DNA of 64,000 nucleotides. It comes from Arachnia rubra. GTDB taxonomy: Bacteria > Actinomycetota > Actinomycetes > Propionibacteriales > Propionibacteriaceae. The position numbers and the translations under genes are program-made. This document shows, one piece after another, positions 4,336-11,161 of the stretch. How positions within the stretch are numbered: position 1 is the first letter of the stretch; each line of letters begins with the position of its first letter. The notes beneath the pieces are model-generated. The model did no database searches. It was not told the DNA's origin and was given only the letters and a program-made list of their open reading frames with translations. The DNA lies in assembly GCF_019973735.1 (NCBI RefSeq), contig NZ_AP024463.1:2976001-3040000 (forward strand). The letters are read 5' to 3'.

Positions 4336-4408
4336 CACTGTGATCCTCACCGAACGCGAGCTGCGCAGCAGGGAGTGCGCGGAACCAGGTACCAGCTCAC
4401 GGGGAGAT

Positions 4409-4480
4409 CCACCCGGTTGCGCAGCGCTCAATCCCGGAAATCGCCCCCGAATGGGCAGAAATCGAGTTAAGTGCTGCGAA
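4409..4480. repeat. REP-like palindromic repeat, copy 2 (diverged)
   Basis: The second copy of the element at 3149-3219: CCACCCGGTTGCGCAGC is identical, followed by GCTCAATCCCGGA against ACTCAACCCGGA. The right arm GTTAAGTGCTGC (4466-4477) pairs only imperfectly with the left arm. It lies just past the 3' end of the truncated ABC ATPase gene on the opposite strand. Confidence 0.5.
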
Positions 4481-4497
4481 ACCGGGATTCCCGCCGC

Positions 4498-4839
4498 TCA
4501 GGTTTGCGTCACCGGCCTGAGGAACTGGAACAGCGGCGTCTCGTCGCCGTCCGGATGCAGGATCCGCACCTCCACCCCGTAGACCTCACGGATCAGGTCC
4601 TCGGTCAGCACGTCCGCCGGACGCCCCAGACACACCGCCCGGCCCTTGTGCAGGACCAGCACCTCGTCGCAGAACGTGGTGGCCAGGTTCAGGTCGTGCA
4701 GGGCGACGACCACACCCAGACCCGTCTGTCTCAAGGTTGTGAGGATGTCCAGCTGGTGGGAGATGTCGAGGTGGTTGGTGGGTTCGTCCAGCAGCATGAC
4801 CTGCCCCTCCTGGGCGAACGCCCGGGCGAGGTGTATGGT
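4498..4839 (-). pseudogene. Truncated FecE-like siderophore/hemin ABC transporter ATPase
   Basis: Only the C-terminal 113 or so residues of an iron-siderophore-type ABC ATPase remain. The frame picks up inside the ABC signature region (HLARAFAQ), followed by Walker B LLDEPTNHLDI, the H-loop VVVALHDLNL, and a tail with VLVLHKGRAV and the usual family ending. The P-loop half is missing. Upstream the frame runs into a remnant of an IS3-family transposase, so an insertion and deletion removed the 5' half. No partner permease or binding-protein gene remains nearby. It should be inactive. Confidence 0.75.
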
Positions 4840-4947
4840 ATTGCTCGAACTCGACTGAAGACTGTTATCCCAGCGACGAGTGTGGTCGAGGCTTCTTGTG
4901 GACCACCTCGATCCAGCGGGCGACCTCAGTGCGGGTTTCGGCTCGGG
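4838..4947 (-). pseudogene. IS3-family transposase (OrfB) C-terminal remnant
   Basis: Read on the minus strand, this segment gives RAETRTEVARWIEVVHKKPR, then PHSSLG, a TAA stop where OrfB proteins carry tyrosine (LGY), then QSSVEFEQYHT. This matches the end of the DDE integrase domain of IS3-family transposases (RPHSxLGYxSPxEFE). About 36 residues survive, broken by the stop. It adjoins the truncated ABC ATPase gene and so marks the insertion that destroyed it. Confidence 0.6.
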
Positions 4948-4968
4948 TACATCCAGCACCTGTGGAGC

Positions 4969-5705
4969 CTCTCGTAAGGTGATTGGCCGATAGTTACTAC
5001 TGCCGGATGGTGTCGGCGGGGTAGCGTGGTGAGAACAAAATTTCACCGAGACCTATCGCACGGCATTTCACATCGCAATTCCGGTTTGACAGGGGATCTG
5101 AGTGGATCTGCCTCGTGGTGCTGGTTGAAGCAAGGATGCGACAACTTGGAAGCGCTGATTTTCTCGAGGGGCTGCGGCTGTGAATCTCAGGGGTGGGTGG
5201 TGCGCCGTTGGACTCGTGCGTGTGCTGGACCCGTTCGATGTGTCCGTGCGGGATAGTTCGTTGGGTTCCGTTTCGATGGTAGGTCTTAAGAAGAGAGGAT
5301 GAGGAGATTCCGGTGAGGTTCAAGAAGATGTTGGCGACGACGGCTCTCGTTGCGACGATGTCGTGTGGTCAGGCTATGATTCCTGCTTCGGCCGTCACTG
5401 TTCCCGAGGATGCGTCGGTTCCGAGTCTCGTACAGGATGATGTCGATCTCCAGGCTGTGGAGGCTGAGGTTACAACTATTTTTGAACGCTATCTTCAACA
5501 GGATTCTGAGGGCAGGTGGAGCGTTAATGTAGAGGCCGTCCGGCAGGACGGGGCGCCTGAGGCTGAACTGCAGCGTATCGCGGAAAGGTTCAATGTCCCG
5601 ATCGGGACGTATGTGTTCCCGGGCTCGGAGGACAAGGACGCAGGAGGGAAGGGCGCGAGTCCCCAACACCAGTTCGGCAGCTGGGAGTGGGGCAAATGCG
5701 TGCTC
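4969..5705 (+). repeat. Duplicated segment, copy A (leader plus N-terminal half of the secreted protein gene)
   Basis: This roughly 737-bp stretch is repeated at 6847-7506 at about 85-90% identity by eye. It covers about 340 bp of upstream DNA and the gene up to the WGKCVL codons; the last 90 bp before the start codon are almost identical. Similarity stops abruptly where the C-terminal domain begins. Conserved promoter and N-terminus with a swapped C-terminus points to recombination or diversifying selection. Confidence 0.75.
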
Positions 5706-5927
5706 GGTGCTCTCGTCCCTACTTTCGGAGCGGTGGTCACGAAAGCTATGCAAGGGGGCTATCTTTCCTTGTTGGCCAAAGGGCAGTATGCCAAGGTGGT
5801 GTCGCACCTGATTCGGGTAGTCGGGCCTGCGGCCTTGAAAGAGGGACTGAAGGCGGTGGGCGGAACCGTCGGGTTGATCGGGTTACTCGCTGGTGCAGCT
5901 GCTTGGTGCGCCTCCCCGTGGGCGTAG
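5313..5927 (+). CDS. Secreted bacteriocin-like protein, cassette A
   Basis: A 204-residue presecretory protein. It has a signal peptide (RFKK, then a hydrophobic stretch, likely cleaved after PASA near residue 28) and a polar middle domain of about 90 residues (VEAEVTTIFERYLQQ and VNVEAVRQDGAPEAELQRIA). A hydrophobic, glycine-rich C-terminal domain of about 80 residues is bounded by cysteines in WGKCVLG and AAAWCASPWA. This layout recalls uncharacterised small secreted Gram-positive proteins with a C-terminal hydrophobic module between two cysteines; I rely on memory for that likeness. The GTG start has GAGGAG nine bases before it. The next gene encodes a small membrane protein, its likely immunity partner. 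Pore formation is inferred only. Confidence 0.7.
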   Translation: MRFKKMLATTALVATMSCGQAMIPASAVTVPEDASVPSLVQDDVDLQAVEAEVTTIFERYLQQDSEGRWSVNVEAVRQDGAPEAELQRIAERFNVPIGTYVFPGSEDKDAGGKGASPQHQFGSWEWGKCVLGALVPTFGAVVTKAMQGGYLSLLAKGQYAKVVSHLIRVVGPAALKEGLKAVGGTVGLIGLLAGAAAWCASPWA

Positions 5928-5929
5928 TG

Positions 5930-6286
5930 ATGGATGATACACAACCCGGTACGCGAGAGAAGGCAATCGCGTACTTTGCCCTGTGTACGTTTCGGCTGGG
6001 CCTAGTGGGGCTGGCTTTCTTGGCTTTCTGGTTGTCCACCTGGGTTTCCCTTGAGACTGCGGGGATAATTGCTGGCCTGATGGCAATGGTTGTGCTGGGA
6101 GGCACGGCATATGAAGTCTTCATATCTCGTGCTGATAGTGCGCAGCTTCCGTACAAGATCATTGTTTCTCTCCTGATAGTGGCTGCCATAGTTCTGCCCG
6201 TGTGGGGGACCGAGAAATTCTGGCCTGCGCTGACCTCGACCCTGCTGGTGTCCGGACTCATAACAATGCGCCGACCCGGGGGATAA
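5930..6286 (+). CDS. Four-helix membrane protein, putative immunity partner A
   Basis: A 118-residue membrane protein with four predicted helices: around 12-38, 42-62, 75-92 and 95-112. The conserved segment WGTEKFWPAL leads into the last helix. The ATG follows the stop of the secreted-protein gene by two bases (a GTG at 5927 in frame even overlaps it), so the two are translationally coupled. A paralogue with the same layout and WGTEKFMPAL follows the second secreted-protein copy. Small multi-helix proteins coupled to hydrophobic bacteriocin genes are usually immunity proteins that protect the producer's membrane. That role is inferred from arrangement, not from recognised homology. Confidence 0.65.
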   Translation: MDDTQPGTREKAIAYFALCTFRLGLVGLAFLAFWLSTWVSLETAGIIAGLMAMVVLGGTAYEVFISRADSAQLPYKIIVSLLIVAAIVLPVWGTEKFWPALTSTLLVSGLITMRRPGG

Positions 6287-6355
6287 GGTTCATAGATAGG
6301 CTGATCTCACTTCCCGGTGCGACACGAGCAGATGAGTTACTAAGAGGGCTTTATG

Positions 6356-6484
6356 ATGGTCAGTGGACATGTCGACAGACGTGAGAGAACGAGTGCCTAT
6401 GCGATTGTGGGTGCCTTCTGGTTGACGTTGGTGGCCGTGTTCTTCCCCGGATGCGGCGGCTCTACGCGGACTGGGAGGACGTGA
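6356..6484 (+). pseudogene. Fragment of a third immunity-like membrane protein gene
   Basis: An ATG-started frame of 42 residues begins MVSGHVDRRERTSAYAIVGA and continues into one hydrophobic helix. Its start resembles the N-terminus of the putative immunity protein just upstream (TREKAIAYFALC and a helix). After about 30 residues it runs into DNA belonging to an unrelated regulator remnant and stops. I read it as the 5' piece of a further cassette cut off by rearrangement. The likeness is short, so this is tentative. Confidence 0.35.
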
Positions 6485-6757
6485 CCCGGGTGGCGGTGGA
6501 GCAGCTGCGCAGGTTCAACGCCACCACCCCTGACGATCCGGAGTTGCGTCGTCTCGTCGCAGAACTGTCCGCCGGGGATGATGTTTTCGCGTATTGGCGG
6601 CGCCAAGCTGTTGCGGCACCCGCTGGTGGGGGAGCTCGAATTCGAATGGTCTGCGCTGACCTGGAACGCTGACCCGGGGATGCAGATCATCGTTTGGACC
6701 GCGACCCCGGGCTCGGCCTCCCGAGAGCGCCTCGCCCGGTTGAGGATACTGGCGTGA
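6443..6757 (+). pseudogene. MmyB-like XRE-family regulator, C-terminal remnant (frameshifted)
   Basis: The first frame gives MRRLYADWEDVTRVAVEQLR and DDPELRRLVAELSAGDDVF. After a shift near 6600 a second frame gives LLRHPLVGELEFEWSAL and WTATPGSASRERLARL before the stop. Together these match the C-terminal ligand-binding domain of MmyB-like helix-turn-helix regulators (LYADW, HP-VGEL, PGS-S-ERL). The N-terminal DNA-binding domain and part of the middle are missing, so it is a relic. It lies between the two cassette copies and shows that foreign DNA has moved through this island. Confidence 0.6.
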
Positions 6758-6846
6758 GAAGCAGCGCATCCACCCAACAGCCTTGCCAGCGTGATGGGTG
6801 CGGAAGGTGGCTGAGTCGGGTGCGATGTGGTCACCACCCGCGGAAC

Positions 6847-7506
6847 TCTCTCGTGAGGTGATTGGTTGGTAGTTGCTACTGCTGGATGGTGCTGGTGGGG
6901 TAGCGTGACGGGAACAAAAGTTCACCGAGGCCTGTCGCGTGGTGTTTCGCATCGCAGTTATTGGTTTGACAAAGGGGGTCTGAGTGGATCCGCCTCGTGG
7001 TGCTGGCCGGGGTAGGGGTGTGACAACCTGGAAACGCCGGAGTCCCTGGGGTGTTGCGGCTGCGGATCTCAGGGGTGGGTGGTGCGCCGTTGGACTCGTG
7101 CGTGTGCTGGACCCGTTCGATGTGTCCGTGCGGGATAGTTCGTTGGGTTCCGTTTCGATGGTAGGTCTCAAGAAGAGAGGATGAGGAGATTCCGGTGAGG
7201 GTCACGAAGATGTCGGCGACGACGGCTCTCGTGCAGGATGATGTTGATCTCCAGGCTGTGGAGGCCGAGGTCACAACCATTTTTGAACGCTATCTTCAGC
7301 AGGGTTCTGAGGGCAGGTGGAGCGTTAATGTAGAGGCCGTCCGGCAGGACGGGGCGCCTGAGGCCGATCTGCAGCGTATTGCGGAAGGGTTCAATGTTCC
7401 GATCGGGACGTATGTGTTCCCGGGTTCGGAGGACAAGGGAGCAGGAGGGGAGGGCGCGAGTCCCCAACACCAGTTCGGCAGCGGGGAGTGGGGCAAATGT
7501 GTGCTC
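6847..7506 (+). repeat. Duplicated segment, copy B
   Basis: The counterpart of 4969-5705. The promoter and leader are conserved, with the last 90 bp before the start codon almost identical. Within the gene, 81 bp covering most of the signal peptide are missing; the flanking hexamer TCTCGT in copy A suggests deletion between short direct repeats. Similarity ends at the same WGKCVL point as in copy A. Confidence 0.75.
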
Positions 7507-7704
7507 AACGTCGCGGTTCCCGGTGCAGGAACCATGCTTATCGACGGTGCTATCAGGGGTCTTCTGGCAAAGGGGAAGTATGCTCAAGTGGCTTCTTGGC
7601 TCCTGCGCGTGGTTGGCCGGTCGGCAATTCGGGGTGGCGCAATCGGCTTGGTGGCTTCGCTTGCCGCGGCAGCAGCCTGGTGTTCTACGTCGGTTGCATC
7701 ATGA
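7195..7704 (+). CDS. Bacteriocin-like protein, cassette B (signal peptide deleted)
   Basis: A 169-residue paralogue of the secreted protein in cassette A. The middle domain is almost identical (VNVEAVRQDGAPEADLQRIA), but the C-terminal domain is different (WGKCVLNVAVPGAG, RGLLAKGKYAQVASWLLRVV, AAAAWCSTSVAS) while keeping both flanking cysteines and the small-residue-rich helices. Relative to copy A it lacks 27 residues covering the hydrophobic core and cleavage site of the signal peptide, so export by Sec looks lost. The GTG start and ribosome-binding site are identical to copy A. Its stop overlaps the ATG of the next membrane-protein gene (ATGA). The toxin may be silent while the partner gene stays expressed. 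Confidence 0.65.
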   Translation: MRVTKMSATTALVQDDVDLQAVEAEVTTIFERYLQQGSEGRWSVNVEAVRQDGAPEADLQRIAEGFNVPIGTYVFPGSEDKGAGGEGASPQHQFGSGEWGKCVLNVAVPGAGTMLIDGAIRGLLAKGKYAQVASWLLRVVGRSAIRGGAIGLVASLAAAAAWCSTSVAS

Positions 7705-8081
7705 AACAATCCGGTCTGCCAACAAGGGAACTGCGACAACGGCACTTCCCACAGGTTGTCATCTTCATTATCTGCATGGTATTTCTCCTGGCCACCATCA
7801 TGACGGCAATCTCGTGGATCACGATTCCGCGTGCGACAATCATGGCATCCGTGCTCATCGTAGGACTGACTGCCGCGATGGCATACAAGACCTTTGTAGC
7901 GCAAAACATCGCGTACAGCACGAATTTCACTATCGTTTGCTCTCTGATCTTGATGGCTGGTATCGCTGGAGCACAATGGGGAACAGAAAAATTTATGCCC
8001 GCACTCATCGCTACGCTCACAGTTTCTGCCATTATGACCATTCGCCAGGCCAGATCCACATCCTCTCGGATTCGACCCTGA
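7701..8081 (+). CDS. Four-helix membrane protein, putative immunity partner B
   Basis: A 126-residue membrane protein with four likely helices (about 18-38, 43-62, 74-92, 100-115), WGTEKFMPALIATL near the end and a basic tail. It matches the cassette A partner in helix order and in the WGTEKF-PAL segment but has otherwise diverged, in step with the divergence of the toxin-like C-terminus. The ATG overlaps the upstream stop by four bases, so expression is coupled. It is probably the immunity protein for the cassette B product. Being kept intact next to a crippled toxin gene would fit a producer retaining protection. Confidence 0.65.
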   Translation: MKQSGLPTRELRQRHFPQVVIFIICMVFLLATIMTAISWITIPRATIMASVLIVGLTAAMAYKTFVAQNIAYSTNFTIVCSLILMAGIAGAQWGTEKFMPALIATLTVSAIMTIRQARSTSSRIRP

Positions 8082-8166
8082 CGCTCTGCCTTTCGGCCTG
8101 ATGGCCTCGGCAAAACTTCTCACTCACAAGATCAGCGGATCATTGCCCTAGAAGCCTATCCATGGA

Positions 8167-8355
8167 GTGGTGGCGGACGGGACACCTGAGCCCGATCAGC
8201 AGCGTATTACGAAAAGGTTCAATGAGGCTTATTTAACAGACAGCGTGCCGGCCAGGAAAAACCCCAGTAAGCGCACGCTCAAAGAGAGTTGTGAACAAGC
8301 CTCACTGAAGCTATCAGACCATGTCCAAGACCATCAACGCCTAAGATTTAGGTGA
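8167..8355 (+). pseudogene. Decayed third copy of the secreted-protein gene (middle domain only)
   Basis: The frame begins VADGTPEPDQQRITKRFNEA, which lines up with VRQDGAPEADLQRIAEGFNV of the two cassettes, and the DNA is similar over about 65 bases (8170-8235). It then departs and ends after 62 residues without the hydrophobic C-terminal domain. No ribosome-binding site stands before it. It is a relic of another cassette, so the locus once held at least three. Confidence 0.5.
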
Positions 8356-8408
8356 TCCTCTTCCTCGCCCTGACCCCTTTCACACAAATCTCCCCCACGA
8401 AGGAGCCG

Positions 8409-8612
8409 ATGGGTCTGCGGGTCCAACTCAAGATAGAGATCAAAACCGACGACGACCTTGCGAAGACGGCTACGGAAAATTCTCTTGAAGACGCCCTTGC
8501 CGCGGAGAAGATGTTGTGGATATCAAAGCACACTGAGCGCGAGAGTTCACAGTTGCAGCCTTGGCTGAATATAGATCAGCCGCATGAACACACACGAAAT
8601 GGCTGCCGCTGA
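8409..8612 (+). CDS. Small hypothetical protein (doubtful)
   Basis: An ATG closely preceded by AAGGAG opens a 67-residue frame: VQLKIEIKTDDDLAKTATEN, EDALAAEKMLWISKHTERES and a histidine-rich end. It has no membrane segment and I do not recognise it. Its end overlaps the start of the next gene by 29 bases in another frame. Base composition here is lower in GC than in the surroundings. It could be a real small gene, a regulatory leader, or chance. Confidence 0.3.
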   Translation: MGLRVQLKIEIKTDDDLAKTATENSLEDALAAEKMLWISKHTERESSQLQPWLNIDQPHEHTRNGCR

Positions 8613-9324
8613 AACGCAGCCCATCGGAGCCTTGGGGCAGACCCACATCGCATTCTGCATGATGAAGGAGCGAACCAAGGAACTCTTCAACGACAAAACC
8701 AAGGGACCCATGGATGAGGTCATGAATCTCGCCACCACGACCTCTCGGTTCGACGGCTTGGCCGCGCATTTGTTGCGAGCAGTGGTCCTGCAGTACGCCG
8801 GCGAATTCGATGACATCGAACGCGCAGAGGCGCTCGACCGCTACGTAGACGTGAACAAGGTCCGACTGCCTGACTGGCAGGGTGCGCTCCTGTCTCACAT
8901 GGCCGCGGACGCTGCACTCCAGCTGGACGACCATGCTTCACCACTGAGAATTGCCGTCCCGCAGAATCTCCCCGACGGGGCAGTGGGCGATACACTCGTT
9001 TACCGTGTTCTCGGTATGAAATGGGGTGTCGCCAACGTGGACGAATGGGTGGCAACCGCCAAGGCCCGGGGGATCGACCCCCTCAGCGACGTGGCGGATG
9101 CCGAACGACCCACAAGTCTTCGGATCTGGGCGGCCTCAGCACGTGGCGCAATGCATCCCGATCTCTCCACACAACAGGAGGAAGACACCAAGGAGAGATT
9201 GCAGGGACTTACCACCTGTGACAATGTTGAACGTTTGGCGATGGCGGATCAGGACAGCCCCGAGAAATGCAGCCTCGATTCAACCTTCGCCTACTATCTG
9301 AGCTCTGTTTGGGGAATTAAATGA
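8584..9324 (+). CDS. Unknown protein encoded with an ABC transporter
   Basis: A 246-residue protein I do not recognise. It is soluble-looking, mostly helical, without signal peptide or membrane segment at this start (an in-frame stop lies 12 bases before the ATG). Visible stretches include HIAFCMMKERTKELFNDKTK, FDDIERAEALDRYVDV and a C-terminus ending YYLSSVWGIK, with cysteines in TTCDNVE and EKCSLD. The stop overlaps the ATG of the ABC ATPase gene by four bases, so it is made with the transporter. Its place directly behind the bacteriocin-like cassettes suggests a part in export, self-protection or maturation, but nothing in the sequence shows which. Confidence 0.6.
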   Translation: MNTHEMAAAETQPIGALGQTHIAFCMMKERTKELFNDKTKGPMDEVMNLATTTSRFDGLAAHLLRAVVLQYAGEFDDIERAEALDRYVDVNKVRLPDWQGALLSHMAADAALQLDDHASPLRIAVPQNLPDGAVGDTLVYRVLGMKWGVANVDEWVATAKARGIDPLSDVADAERPTSLRIWAASARGAMHPDLSTQQEEDTKERLQGLTTCDNVERLAMADQDSPEKCSLDSTFAYYLSSVWGIK

Positions 9325-9965
9325 CGACCAGAATCGCGTGTCACGGCATCACGAAGTCGTATGGCGAAAACGTCGTGCTCAAAGATCTCGATTTCTGGGT
9401 CGACGCCGGCGAATTGGTGACGCTCGTATCGCCGTCCGGCGGTGGGAAAACCACCTTGTTGAACATCCTGGGAGGTTTGACCACGGCGGATCAGGGTGTC
9501 GTCGAGGTGGCGGGGCAGGACCTCAGCCAGCTGGACGAGGACGGTCGGGCCAGCCTCAGGCGCCACGCGATCGGCATCGTCCACCAGTCGAGTTACCTGT
9601 TTCCCTGGCTCTCGGTGAACGAGAACCTGGAGATCGCTCCCGGCTCCCGCGCTCCCGCCTCGTGGCTCGCGGAGGTCAGGAGAAACCTAGGGATCGATGA
9701 ATTCCACGACACCGAGATCAACAAGCTCTCCGGCGGGCAGCGACGCCGGGTGTGCATCCTGAGGGCCCTGCAGATGGAGGCGAAGGTCCTGTTGCTGGAC
9801 GAACCGACCACTGGACTCGACGATCACCTGGCTTCCTGCGTTCGGCGGGCGTTGCGGGATCTTGCCGACCGGGGCTGCGCGGTCGTCGTCGCGACCCACG
9901 AGGAGGCCATCTCAGCAGCAGCGGATCGTGCGATTGCTCTCCGCGGAAGGAGGACCATCCTATGA
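9321..9965 (+). CDS. ABC transporter ATP-binding protein (MacB/LolD type)
   Basis: A 214-residue ATPase of the MacB/LolD/FtsE class, which drives FtsX-type permeases. Visible motifs: a P-loop SPSGGGKTT around residues 39-47, in which serine replaces the first glycine of the usual GxSGxGKS/T; the signature LSGGQRRRVCILRAL; Walker B VLLLDEPTTGLD; and the H-loop VVVATHEEA. It overlaps the upstream unknown gene and the downstream permease gene by four bases each, forming a three-gene operon. Such transporters in Gram-positives export peptides or lipids or remove antimicrobial peptides from the membrane, which would fit the adjoining bacteriocin-like cassettes. Confidence 0.88.
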   Translation: MTTRIACHGITKSYGENVVLKDLDFWVDAGELVTLVSPSGGGKTTLLNILGGLTTADQGVVEVAGQDLSQLDEDGRASLRRHAIGIVHQSSYLFPWLSVNENLEIAPGSRAPASWLAEVRRNLGIDEFHDTEINKLSGGQRRRVCILRALQMEAKVLLLDEPTTGLDDHLASCVRRALRDLADRGCAVVVATHEEAISAAADRAIALRGRRTIL

Positions 9966-11161
9966 GCACCTTCGCTCTGGTGAGACGCAGCCTGGCCAGG
10001 ACCGTGCGGCGGCACAGGTTGATCGCGGTGCTGGTGTTGCTCCTGGTGTTGGCAACGGTTGTCCTGTCCTGGCTGGCCCGAGGGGCCACGCACGGCACAT
10101 CCCGAGGATTGACGGAAAGCCTCGGAGCCAAGGAGATCGAGGTCATTCAGGGCTACAGCGGGCCGAACAGTCCACCGTTGAACACGAACGCGGTCAAGCA
10201 ACTGGGGAAACTGGACGGTGTGGAGCACGTGTTCCCGTCGGGCATCTCAGGAATCGACCCGCCCGCGGACATCGCCGATTCCGAGGACGGCGCGGGGCCG
10301 TGGTGGCTGACACCCCGCAACCCGTTCGACGACCGAATGAAGGACGTCCACAGCAATCCCGCCGCTTTCCCGGAACCCGGCCAGATGCTGGTACCCGGAC
10401 AACACGAAAACCTGGTGGGAAAGACGATCGAGGTCAACGTCACGCGGGCGGTCAGTTCCACCAGCGGAACGGGCGAGGCGAAACACTTTATGGTGATCGG
10501 CACCTACGACCCGGAAACCGTCCAGGGGGAGCCCCCGGATGCGGTGTTCATCAACTCCTCCCAGTTCAACGAGATCCAGGCGGCGGCACTGCCACCGGAC
10601 ACGCCTCCCTACAGCTCCATCTACCTCTACGTCGGGGACGTGAACGACGTCGCGAAGGTGCAGAAGTCGGTGGAGGACCTGGGCTACGGCACCCGCAGCG
10701 CCATCGGCTCCGGGATCCAGCTCGACAGGGCCCGGCAAGGACTCGCGGTGGCCTCCGTGCTGGTGCTCTTCGTCACCGTCCTCGGGGCGCTGTTCGCGGG
10801 CACATCCGTGGCGGGGACGTGGATGACATCGCGCATCGAGGAGATCGGGTTGTTCAGGTCCCTGGGGTGGACGCGGCGGGCGATCGTGAGGTTCTACCTG
10901 CTGGAAGCCCTCATCTTCGCGCTGTGCGTCTCGGCCATCGGGGTGCTTCTGGGCGTCGGGGTGGTCATGGCACTGGCGGCGCTGCCGTCCCTGCTGACGT
11001 CGGTGGCCGGCTTCAGCATGGATCCCGGGGCGTTGCTGGCCCAGGCGTGGGTGGTAGCGGTGCCACTGATCGCCGTGCCGCTCGGTTTCATCGCCGGAGC
11101 GGGTCGCAGGGCCGCCACGCTGCTGCGCGTCGACACGGACACGCTCCTGCGTCAGATCTGA
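9962..11161 (+). CDS. FtsX-like ABC transporter permease
   Basis: A 399-residue MacB/FtsX-type permease. One N-terminal helix (LIAVLVLLLVLATVVLSWLA) precedes an extracellular MacB-like domain of about 230 residues. Three C-terminal helices follow, with the FtsX pattern: LFVTVLGALFAGTSVAG, then the coupling segment SRIEEIGLFRSLGWTRRAIV, then two further helices. It forms the membrane part for the ATPase just upstream and overlaps it by four bases. The external domain would handle the substrate. One ATPase with one four-helix permease gives a dimeric mechanotransmitter-type transporter. Confidence 0.87.
   Translation: MSTFALVRRSLARTVRRHRLIAVLVLLLVLATVVLSWLARGATHGTSRGLTESLGAKEIEVIQGYSGPNSPPLNTNAVKQLGKLDGVEHVFPSGISGIDPPADIADSEDGAGPWWLTPRNPFDDRMKDVHSNPAAFPEPGQMLVPGQHENLVGKTIEVNVTRAVSSTSGTGEAKHFMVIGTYDPETVQGEPPDAVFINSSQFNEIQAAALPPDTPPYSSIYLYVGDVNDVAKVQKSVEDLGYGTRSAIGSGIQLDRARQGLAVASVLVLFVTVLGALFAGTSVAGTWMTSRIEEIGLFRSLGWTRRAIVRFYLLEALIFALCVSAIGVLLGVGVVMALAALPSLLTSVAGFSMDPGALLAQAWVVAVPLIAVPLGFIAGAGRRAATLLRVDTDTLLRQI

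Follow-up and report, generated by a model that had tools for sequence, protein, structure and literature searches.

What kind of system is encoded by the two similar gene pairs that lie in tandem at 4954-8081 in a 64,000-nucleotide (nt) stretch of Arachnia rubra DNA? This stretch, the window, covers positions 2976001-3040000 of a genome of 3.317 Mb in a single contig, and the coordinates below are window positions unless stated otherwise. A sequence-only reading had described two cassettes, each encoding a secreted protein of an unrecognised family and a coupled four-helix membrane protein, and had compared their arrangement to the logic of polymorphic toxin-immunity systems. Our analysis indicates that each cassette very probably encodes a distant EntV-type bacteriocin together with its own membrane immunity protein, with C-domain/immunity blocks that are swappable behind a common leader. 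We refer to the first proteins of cassettes 1 and 2 as P1 and P2 and to their membrane partners as MP1 and MP2. Signal peptides throughout were assigned by eye from the sequence.

We compared the two cassettes with BLASTN. Positions 4954-5350 and 6832-7232 are 85% identical and positions 5426-5705 and 7227-7506 are 94% identical, after which the similarity stops at the codons for WGKCVL. In the two upstream blocks starting at 5181, 117 of 120 columns are identical, and the 240 nt preceding the first cysteine (Cys) codon are 94% identical between the cassettes. The DNA of the C-domain is 73% identical (181 aligned nt, 70 gap columns) and that of the membrane gene 71% identical (297 aligned nt, 138 gap columns). 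These comparisons confirm two tandem cassettes with shared leader DNA and pro-domain and a common breakpoint. The proposed near-exact sharing of the whole N-terminal half holds for the 240 nt before the Cys codon and does not extend to the signal peptide: 27 residues (81 nt) that include most of the cassette 1 signal peptide are absent from P2, and the gap is bounded by TCTCGT hexamers. Since this stretch is missing, P2 has no signal peptide as it stands and cannot be called a second secreted protein; because of this loss, cassette 2 most probably no longer functions as a weapon but retains its immunity gene. P2 has the usual Cys-Cys spacing of 61, and the spacing of 70 in P1 results from 3 + 6 added residues. 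Three metagenome proteins (P0030, P0037 and P0038, with 7, 5 and 7 member sequences) are 169 amino acids (aa) long like P2, at 96-99% identity, and judged by this length and identity the signal-less form may be in circulation.

The proteins at the head of the cassettes proved to be distant relatives of EntV and hence not an unrecognised family. The EntV_fam profile (NF058576) gives E 0.18 (11.8 bits) for P1 and E 0.0083 (16.1 bits) for P2. Among other members from the genus it gives E 2.3e-6 (27.7 bits) for P0006 and E 4.5e-5 for P0032, and it matches 12 of the 24 members of alignment A3 at E<=0.1 (best 7.7e-6); A3, A4 and A6, like the correlation and tree tests below, comprise chosen subsets of the sequences. 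No genus member scanned reaches the curated cut-off of 130 bits, which places the proteins outside formal NF058576 membership. Because the profile at a loose threshold also finds matches in 2 of 14 unrelated control genomes, we relied on stronger links. When compared by hhalign, a 24-member genus profile aligns with a set of four EntV-type proteins, among them a Lactococcus protein that exceeds the curated cut-off (151.5 bits), at 99.0% and E 2.4e-18 over 148 columns, collinear through pro-domain and C-domain. The membrane-protein profile, as a negative control, gives 0.1% against the EntV-type set.

Two bridges join the families. Protein P0006 finds two proteins of small mobilizable Glutamicibacter plasmids at 25% identity over 99% of its length; these are 97% identical to each other, and the one scanned, P0077, matches EntV_fam at E 1.6e-18. 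Independently, A3, which contains no Glutamicibacter sequence, finds a protein of genome G392 at E 4.6e-9, and EntV_fam finds the same protein at E 6e-17, G392 being the only one of 394 genomes with an EntV_fam match at E<=1e-6 (none of the 14 control genomes has one). For P0077 (0.0023) as well as the mixed profile A4 (0.007), EntV (7roa) is the best-ranked PDB chain, and the alignments pair Cys with Cys. As judged from sequence comparison, the homology of the genus family to EntV-type proteins via these bridges is firm. The Cys pair of EntV, C106-C167, has a spacing of 61 (PMC9562342, PMC6606811), its activity requires proteolytic release and a disulfide (PMC6606811), and its structure comprises three pro-domain helices plus four C-domain helices (PMC9562342). 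AlphaFold2 (AF2) models of P2 and of a second protein, the latter with a predicted local distance difference test (pLDDT) score of 71.4, have three or four pro-domain helices and four or more in the C-domain, which is agreeable with the count in EntV.

How widely is this family distributed? A profile of 13 members was searched against 198 genomes of the bacterial family and located it at 19 places in 7 genomes, all of one genus. Arachnia is an oral genus, and a named relative among those found is [Pseudopropionibacterium] massiliense (L006). Alignment A2 contains 13 of the 19 rows of alignment A1, leaving out the near-duplicates P0016, P0021 and P0028 and the frame-disturbed P0036, P0046 and P0047. 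The Cys-Cys spacing is 61 at 15 of the 19 places, 60 in two leaderless forms and 70 in P1 and L019. A signal peptide can be recognized at 14 of the 19 places; it is absent from P2, L020 and the two leaderless forms, and L011 is ambiguous. The genome of the window has four open-frame members, at genome positions 2981313, 2983198, 3183707 and 179330, of which cassette 1 and the member at 179330 have a signal peptide. In the member at 3183707 (L020 1348-1992), residues 1-65 match PSK_trans_fac, a VapB-like domain, above the cut-off (E 6.9e-10) as an in-frame fusion, and its other 164 residues are 84% identical to L010, where a signal peptide is present. The same genome has a more distant EntV-like locus (L034 1453-2072, genome position 3252083) whose N- and C-terminal halves are split between two reading frames, and a search of 394 genomes of the class yielded one further genome besides the window's own, G392. 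Among the matches listed for literature on bacteriocins of Arachnia propionica/Pseudopropionibacterium, EntV in Propionibacteriaceae and A-M57 in jeikeium, none describes this family in its title or the start of its abstract.

We then considered the membrane partner. At all 19 genus places a strongly hydrophobic open reading frame (ORF) of 115-136 aa follows downstream on the same strand, beginning inside the stop of the preceding gene or at most about 25 nt past it. Under a fixed criterion (100-150 aa, at least 3 hydrophobic windows at width 19, within 60 nt), a partner is found at 16 of the 19 places as compared with 1 of 213 background ORFs, which were picked by length and codon-position GC rather than from annotation; the remaining three partners have two 19-residue windows instead of three. 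Hydropathy scans count three windows in MP1 and three in MP2 at width 19, and three and four at width 15; four helices are a by-eye reading. No Pfam family describes the partners, and a search of 5.8 billion proteins for their relatives returned 10 at E<=0.01 among 7,997 candidates scored. The MP2 gene has 98% DNA identity to the L014 membrane gene of a relative, G033. The ratios of nonsynonymous to synonymous substitution rates (dN/dS) for three pairs of membrane genes computed are 0.13, 0.15 and 0.51.

A partner is also present outside the genus. Relatives of the Lactococcus protein occur in 12 plasmid records including its own, of which we examined 8 (L027, L028, L035 and L045-L049, leaving aside H8, H9, H10 and H15) from Glutamicibacter (2), Lactococcus, Enterococcus faecium, Streptococcus dysgalactiae, Bacillus pumilus and Corynebacterium jeikeium (2); both Glutamicibacter relatives are near-copies, as are both from Corynebacterium. 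The Cys spacing is 61 in all eight, and each has a coupled small hydrophobic ORF, with a start lying from 31 nt upstream to 38 nt downstream of the stop. Against EntV_fam, five of these relatives, including L046, L048 and L049, reach 72-209 bits. The six Firmicute and Corynebacterium relatives have partner ORFs of 59-73 aa with one or two hydrophobic windows, whereas those of the genus are 115-136 aa, and no relatedness is detectable between the Glutamicibacter partner and the genus membrane partners. The exception to coupling is G392, where the listed ORFs around the EntV-type gene include no same-strand hydrophobic neighbour and a 135-aa hydrophobic ORF is convergent. Thus the co-occurrence of both genes, proposed earlier as a check, is borne out at 19 of 19 genus places and in 8 of 8 plasmid relatives examined, with G392 (0 of 1) standing apart. 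We regard the coupled membrane proteins as probable immunity proteins.

Are the blocks exchanged between leaders? G033 has three cassettes at two sites. Across 680 nt upstream of the Cys codon, their leaders are near-identical (one pair matches exactly and the remaining leader differs slightly); they form one clade with support 100/99. Their C-domain-plus-membrane blocks fall elsewhere: one with window cassette 1 (91/89, not starred), one with window cassette 2 (100/100) and one with the cassette of another genome, G019 (95/98). In approximately unbiased (AU) tests, forcing the three G033 blocks together is rejected (p 9.7e-31), as is forcing the leader of window cassette 2 with the leader of its G033 block partner (p 2.2e-6); the trees hold 6 cassettes and the groups were chosen after the identities had been seen, so these p values are descriptive. 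Despite the post hoc groups, the conflict between the leader and C-block trees is large, and it upholds the idea of a fixed trafficking part, a swapped active part and a partner that moves with it. G033 carries a single cassette at the syntenic site; its upstream side is that of window cassette 1 and its end that of window cassette 2, the outcome expected if tandem copies had recombined unequally. The leaders of window cassettes 1 and 2 are not sisters in the best tree, although a sister grouping is not rejected (p 0.376), and for this reason we speak of within-genome homogenisation of leaders for G033 only. A DDE transposase gene lies between two G033 cassettes (L038 11783-12946).

The idea that both genes co-vary across the family fared less well. 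C-domain and membrane protein are correlated (Mantel r 0.70 for 20 loci and 0.43 for 14 loci), and the partial correlation given the pro-domain is 0.55 (p 0.0002) for 17 loci and 0.24 (p 0.068) for 12 non-redundant loci. With the C-domain held constant, pro-domain and membrane protein show a partial correlation of 0.61 (p 0.003) in these same 12 loci. In this non-redundant set, family-wide co-variation therefore cannot be told apart from common descent.

Some blocks stand without any leader. At L022 and L025 (in G019 and G033), the C-domain alone, 68 aa beginning MKC, is followed by a membrane gene and preceded by a purine-rich stretch resembling a ribosome site; the dN/dS of this pair, the one pair computed, is 0.26. 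The length is that of active EntV. The same leaderless form, P0067, has 50 member sequences on 17 contigs, and the longer protein P0057 has a C-domain nearly the same as that of P0067. In G033 (L041 8598-12577), the leaderless peptide and its partner are followed by a 239-aa ORF, a cysteine-rich ORF, a YcaO protein (1.3e-36) and a nitroreductase-family protein (2.9e-16), neighbours that are suggestive of an azole-peptide cluster. In G019 (L040 8000-9400), a leaderless peptide and partner likewise precede a 239-aa ORF, with ORFs similar to those of L041 by their listed beginnings. Arachnicin, an aureocin A53-like and lacticin Q-like bacteriocin of 6.3 kDa from Arachnia (PMC11580447), is also leaderless and is set apart from the 68-aa Cys-paired peptides by its description rather than by sequence comparison.

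Comparison with known systems places the family more closely. EntV (enterocin O16, EF1097, of Enterococcus faecalis) is alike in its pro-domain, its hydrophobic helical C-domain of about 68 aa and its Cys pair 61 apart, all collinear, and in its signal peptide, which is present by eye in P1. The genus family differs in that its members score below the cut-off, in its coupled 115-136 aa membrane partner, and in the 9 additional residues between the Cys residues of P1. Streptococcin A-M57 and dysgalacticin are plasmid-encoded class III bacteriocins. Dysgalacticin affects membrane potential and sugar uptake, and next to its gene lies one for DysI, an immunity factor associated with the membrane (PMC8308785). 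The protein L046 of a 3351-bp S. dysgalactiae plasmid (209 bits to EntV_fam, Cys spacing 61, overlapping 59-aa membrane ORF) is probably of the A-M57 type. We know of no shared-leader family among bacteriocins of the A-M57/dysgalacticin type. The Glutamicibacter plasmids pKLBMP5180 and pRE117-2 and the C. jeikeium plasmids pB85766 and pK64 resemble the window in that an EntV-type protein (67-74 bits, three scanned) is followed by a small hydrophobic ORF; the C. jeikeium proteins (L048 and L049) are hypothetical 153-aa proteins of 72-74 bits. Unlike the window, each of these plasmid records has a single gene of this type within the stretches shown, and the annotation calls it hypothetical. Polymorphic toxin and contact-dependent systems have a fixed trafficking part, a sharp boundary and a C-terminal part that is exchanged along with a partner gene. 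The genus cassettes share all of these features; they differ in that the proteins are small and the C-domains are variants of one family rather than unrelated toxins.

Given the homology to EntV and the coupled membrane ORF, the bacteriocin-plus-immunity reading is supported, and a mechanism can be proposed by analogy with EntV and dysgalacticin. P1 would be exported via Sec, with the pro-domain shielding the hydrophobic C-domain, and a disulfide between Cys129 and Cys199 would close the C-domain; the genome of the window encodes two DsbA-type proteins and yields no VKOR match. An extracellular protease would cleave just before the first Cys to release a helical peptide of 70-80 residues, whose site of action may be the membrane of closely related bacteria. 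The producer would be protected by its coupled membrane protein, which would hold either the peptide or the membrane target of the peptide. Recombination in the shared leader would swap C-domain/immunity blocks behind the common export and pro-domain part.

A different function for an EntV relative is conceivable, since EntV68 is inhibitory to the hyphae and biofilm of Candida, its last helix being enough for antifungal activity (PMC6606811, PMC9562342). The main activity might then be to restrain a fungal or other biofilm partner, the membrane protein being a helper in export or processing. We consider this unlikely: the partner is coupled at 19 of 19 places and moves with the C-domain and not with the leader, which would fit immunity better than export or processing.

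Two further alternatives take the altered cassettes as their starting point. The pair could work inside the cell, export no longer being needed, so that leaderless and signal-less forms represent the working state; the 68-aa homologues have their own membrane partner and a dN/dS of 0.26 (one pair), 169-aa proteins like P2 recur in metagenomes (P0030, P0037 and P0038), and L020 carries a VapB-like domain where relatives have a signal peptide. A signal peptide at 14 of 19 places and a conserved Cys pair fit export, however, and make an intracellular role very unlikely. Alternatively, the cassettes could be relics of recombination with no present activity, given that P2 has lost its signal peptide, a third leader has decayed, L020 is fused to another domain and the distant EntV-like locus is split between two frames. 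This we judge highly improbable, as both genes of cassette 1 have open frames and the same holds for members in 6 other genomes, and the membrane-gene dN/dS values are those given above.

Features of the two cassettes in the window.
Feature	Position	Strand	Evidence or remark
Upstream region (promoter / 5' leader side), common to cassette 2	4954..5312	+	BLASTN
Cassette 1 (P1 + MP1)	5313-6286	+	Secreted protein and membrane protein
P1, 204 aa, GTG start: signal peptide, pro-domain, C-domain	5313..5927	+	ORF; homologues at 19 places in genus
Predicted Sec signal peptide of P1, residues 1-27, ending ASA	5313..5393	+	By-eye reading
P1 pro-domain (IFERYL region to WGK), near-same in cassette 2	5394..5696	+	94% over last 240 nt; AF2 helices 46-60, 73-79, 83-94
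P1 C-domain, Cys129 to end, second Cys199, spacing 70: predicted active peptide	5697..5924	+	Invariant Cys in alignments
MP1, 118 aa, predicted immunity protein	5930..6286	+	ORF starts 2 nt past P1 stop; 3 hydrophobic windows; no Pfam family
Upstream region of cassette 2, common to cassette 1	6832..7194	+	BLASTN
Cassette 2 (P2 + MP2)	7195-8081	+	
P2, 169 aa, without signal peptide; Cys102-Cys163, spacing 61	7195..7704	+	ORF; EntV_fam E 0.0083 (residues 91-163); AF2 pLDDT 75.7, predicted template modelling score (pTM) 0.71
TCTCGT at junction of 81-nt deletion relative to cassette 1	7227..7232	+	Sequences; overlapping BLASTN pieces
MP2, 126 aa, predicted immunity protein; start overlaps P2 stop	7701..8081	+	ORF; 3-4 hydrophobic windows
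Decayed pro-domain remnant of a third cassette	8175..8224	+	BLASTN, 82% over 50 nt to 5546-5595

Within 4400-9400 there is no Rfam match at E<=0.1. On the upstream side, the end of a minus-strand gene at 4498-5046 for an ATP-binding cassette (ABC) ATPase, read as being of the iron-siderophore type, reaches the cassette region near 4850 and appears truncated, as if the cassette block had been inserted there. Downstream of the cassettes, 8584-11161 encodes a 246-aa protein of unknown function, an ABC ATPase and a permease. In G033 the permease ORF occurs twice, once on either side of the cassette (L039 706-1905 and 10303-11502).

Taken as a kind, then, these are very probably distant EntV-type bacteriocins, and their cassettes are laid out like a small polymorphic toxin; what is new is the swapping of C-domain/membrane blocks behind a shared leader, the homogenised leader in one relative and the leaderless 68-aa versions. 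More tentatively, the Sec-exported bacteriocin family of this one genus may be a true polymorphic system, in which gene conversion, in at least one genome, keeps a promoter/leader/pro-domain chassis near-identical, blocks are exchanged at a fixed WGKCVL boundary, and some blocks are now leaderless 68-aa bacteriocins that precede a YcaO/nitroreductase cluster in one genome and apparently in a second. Our confidence in this extended proposal is lowered to somewhat doubtful because homogenisation is seen in one genome only and the leaders in the window do not emerge as sisters. The bacteriocin reading itself extends the EntV type, a lead class with antifungal and antibacterial activity, to a multi-copy chromosomal family in Actinomycetota, and every C-domain gains a candidate immunity protein. 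The natural leaderless versions of 68 aa show what the active unit is likely to be, independently of which protease is involved, and the family would show a route by which a simple bacteriocin diversifies like a polymorphic toxin.

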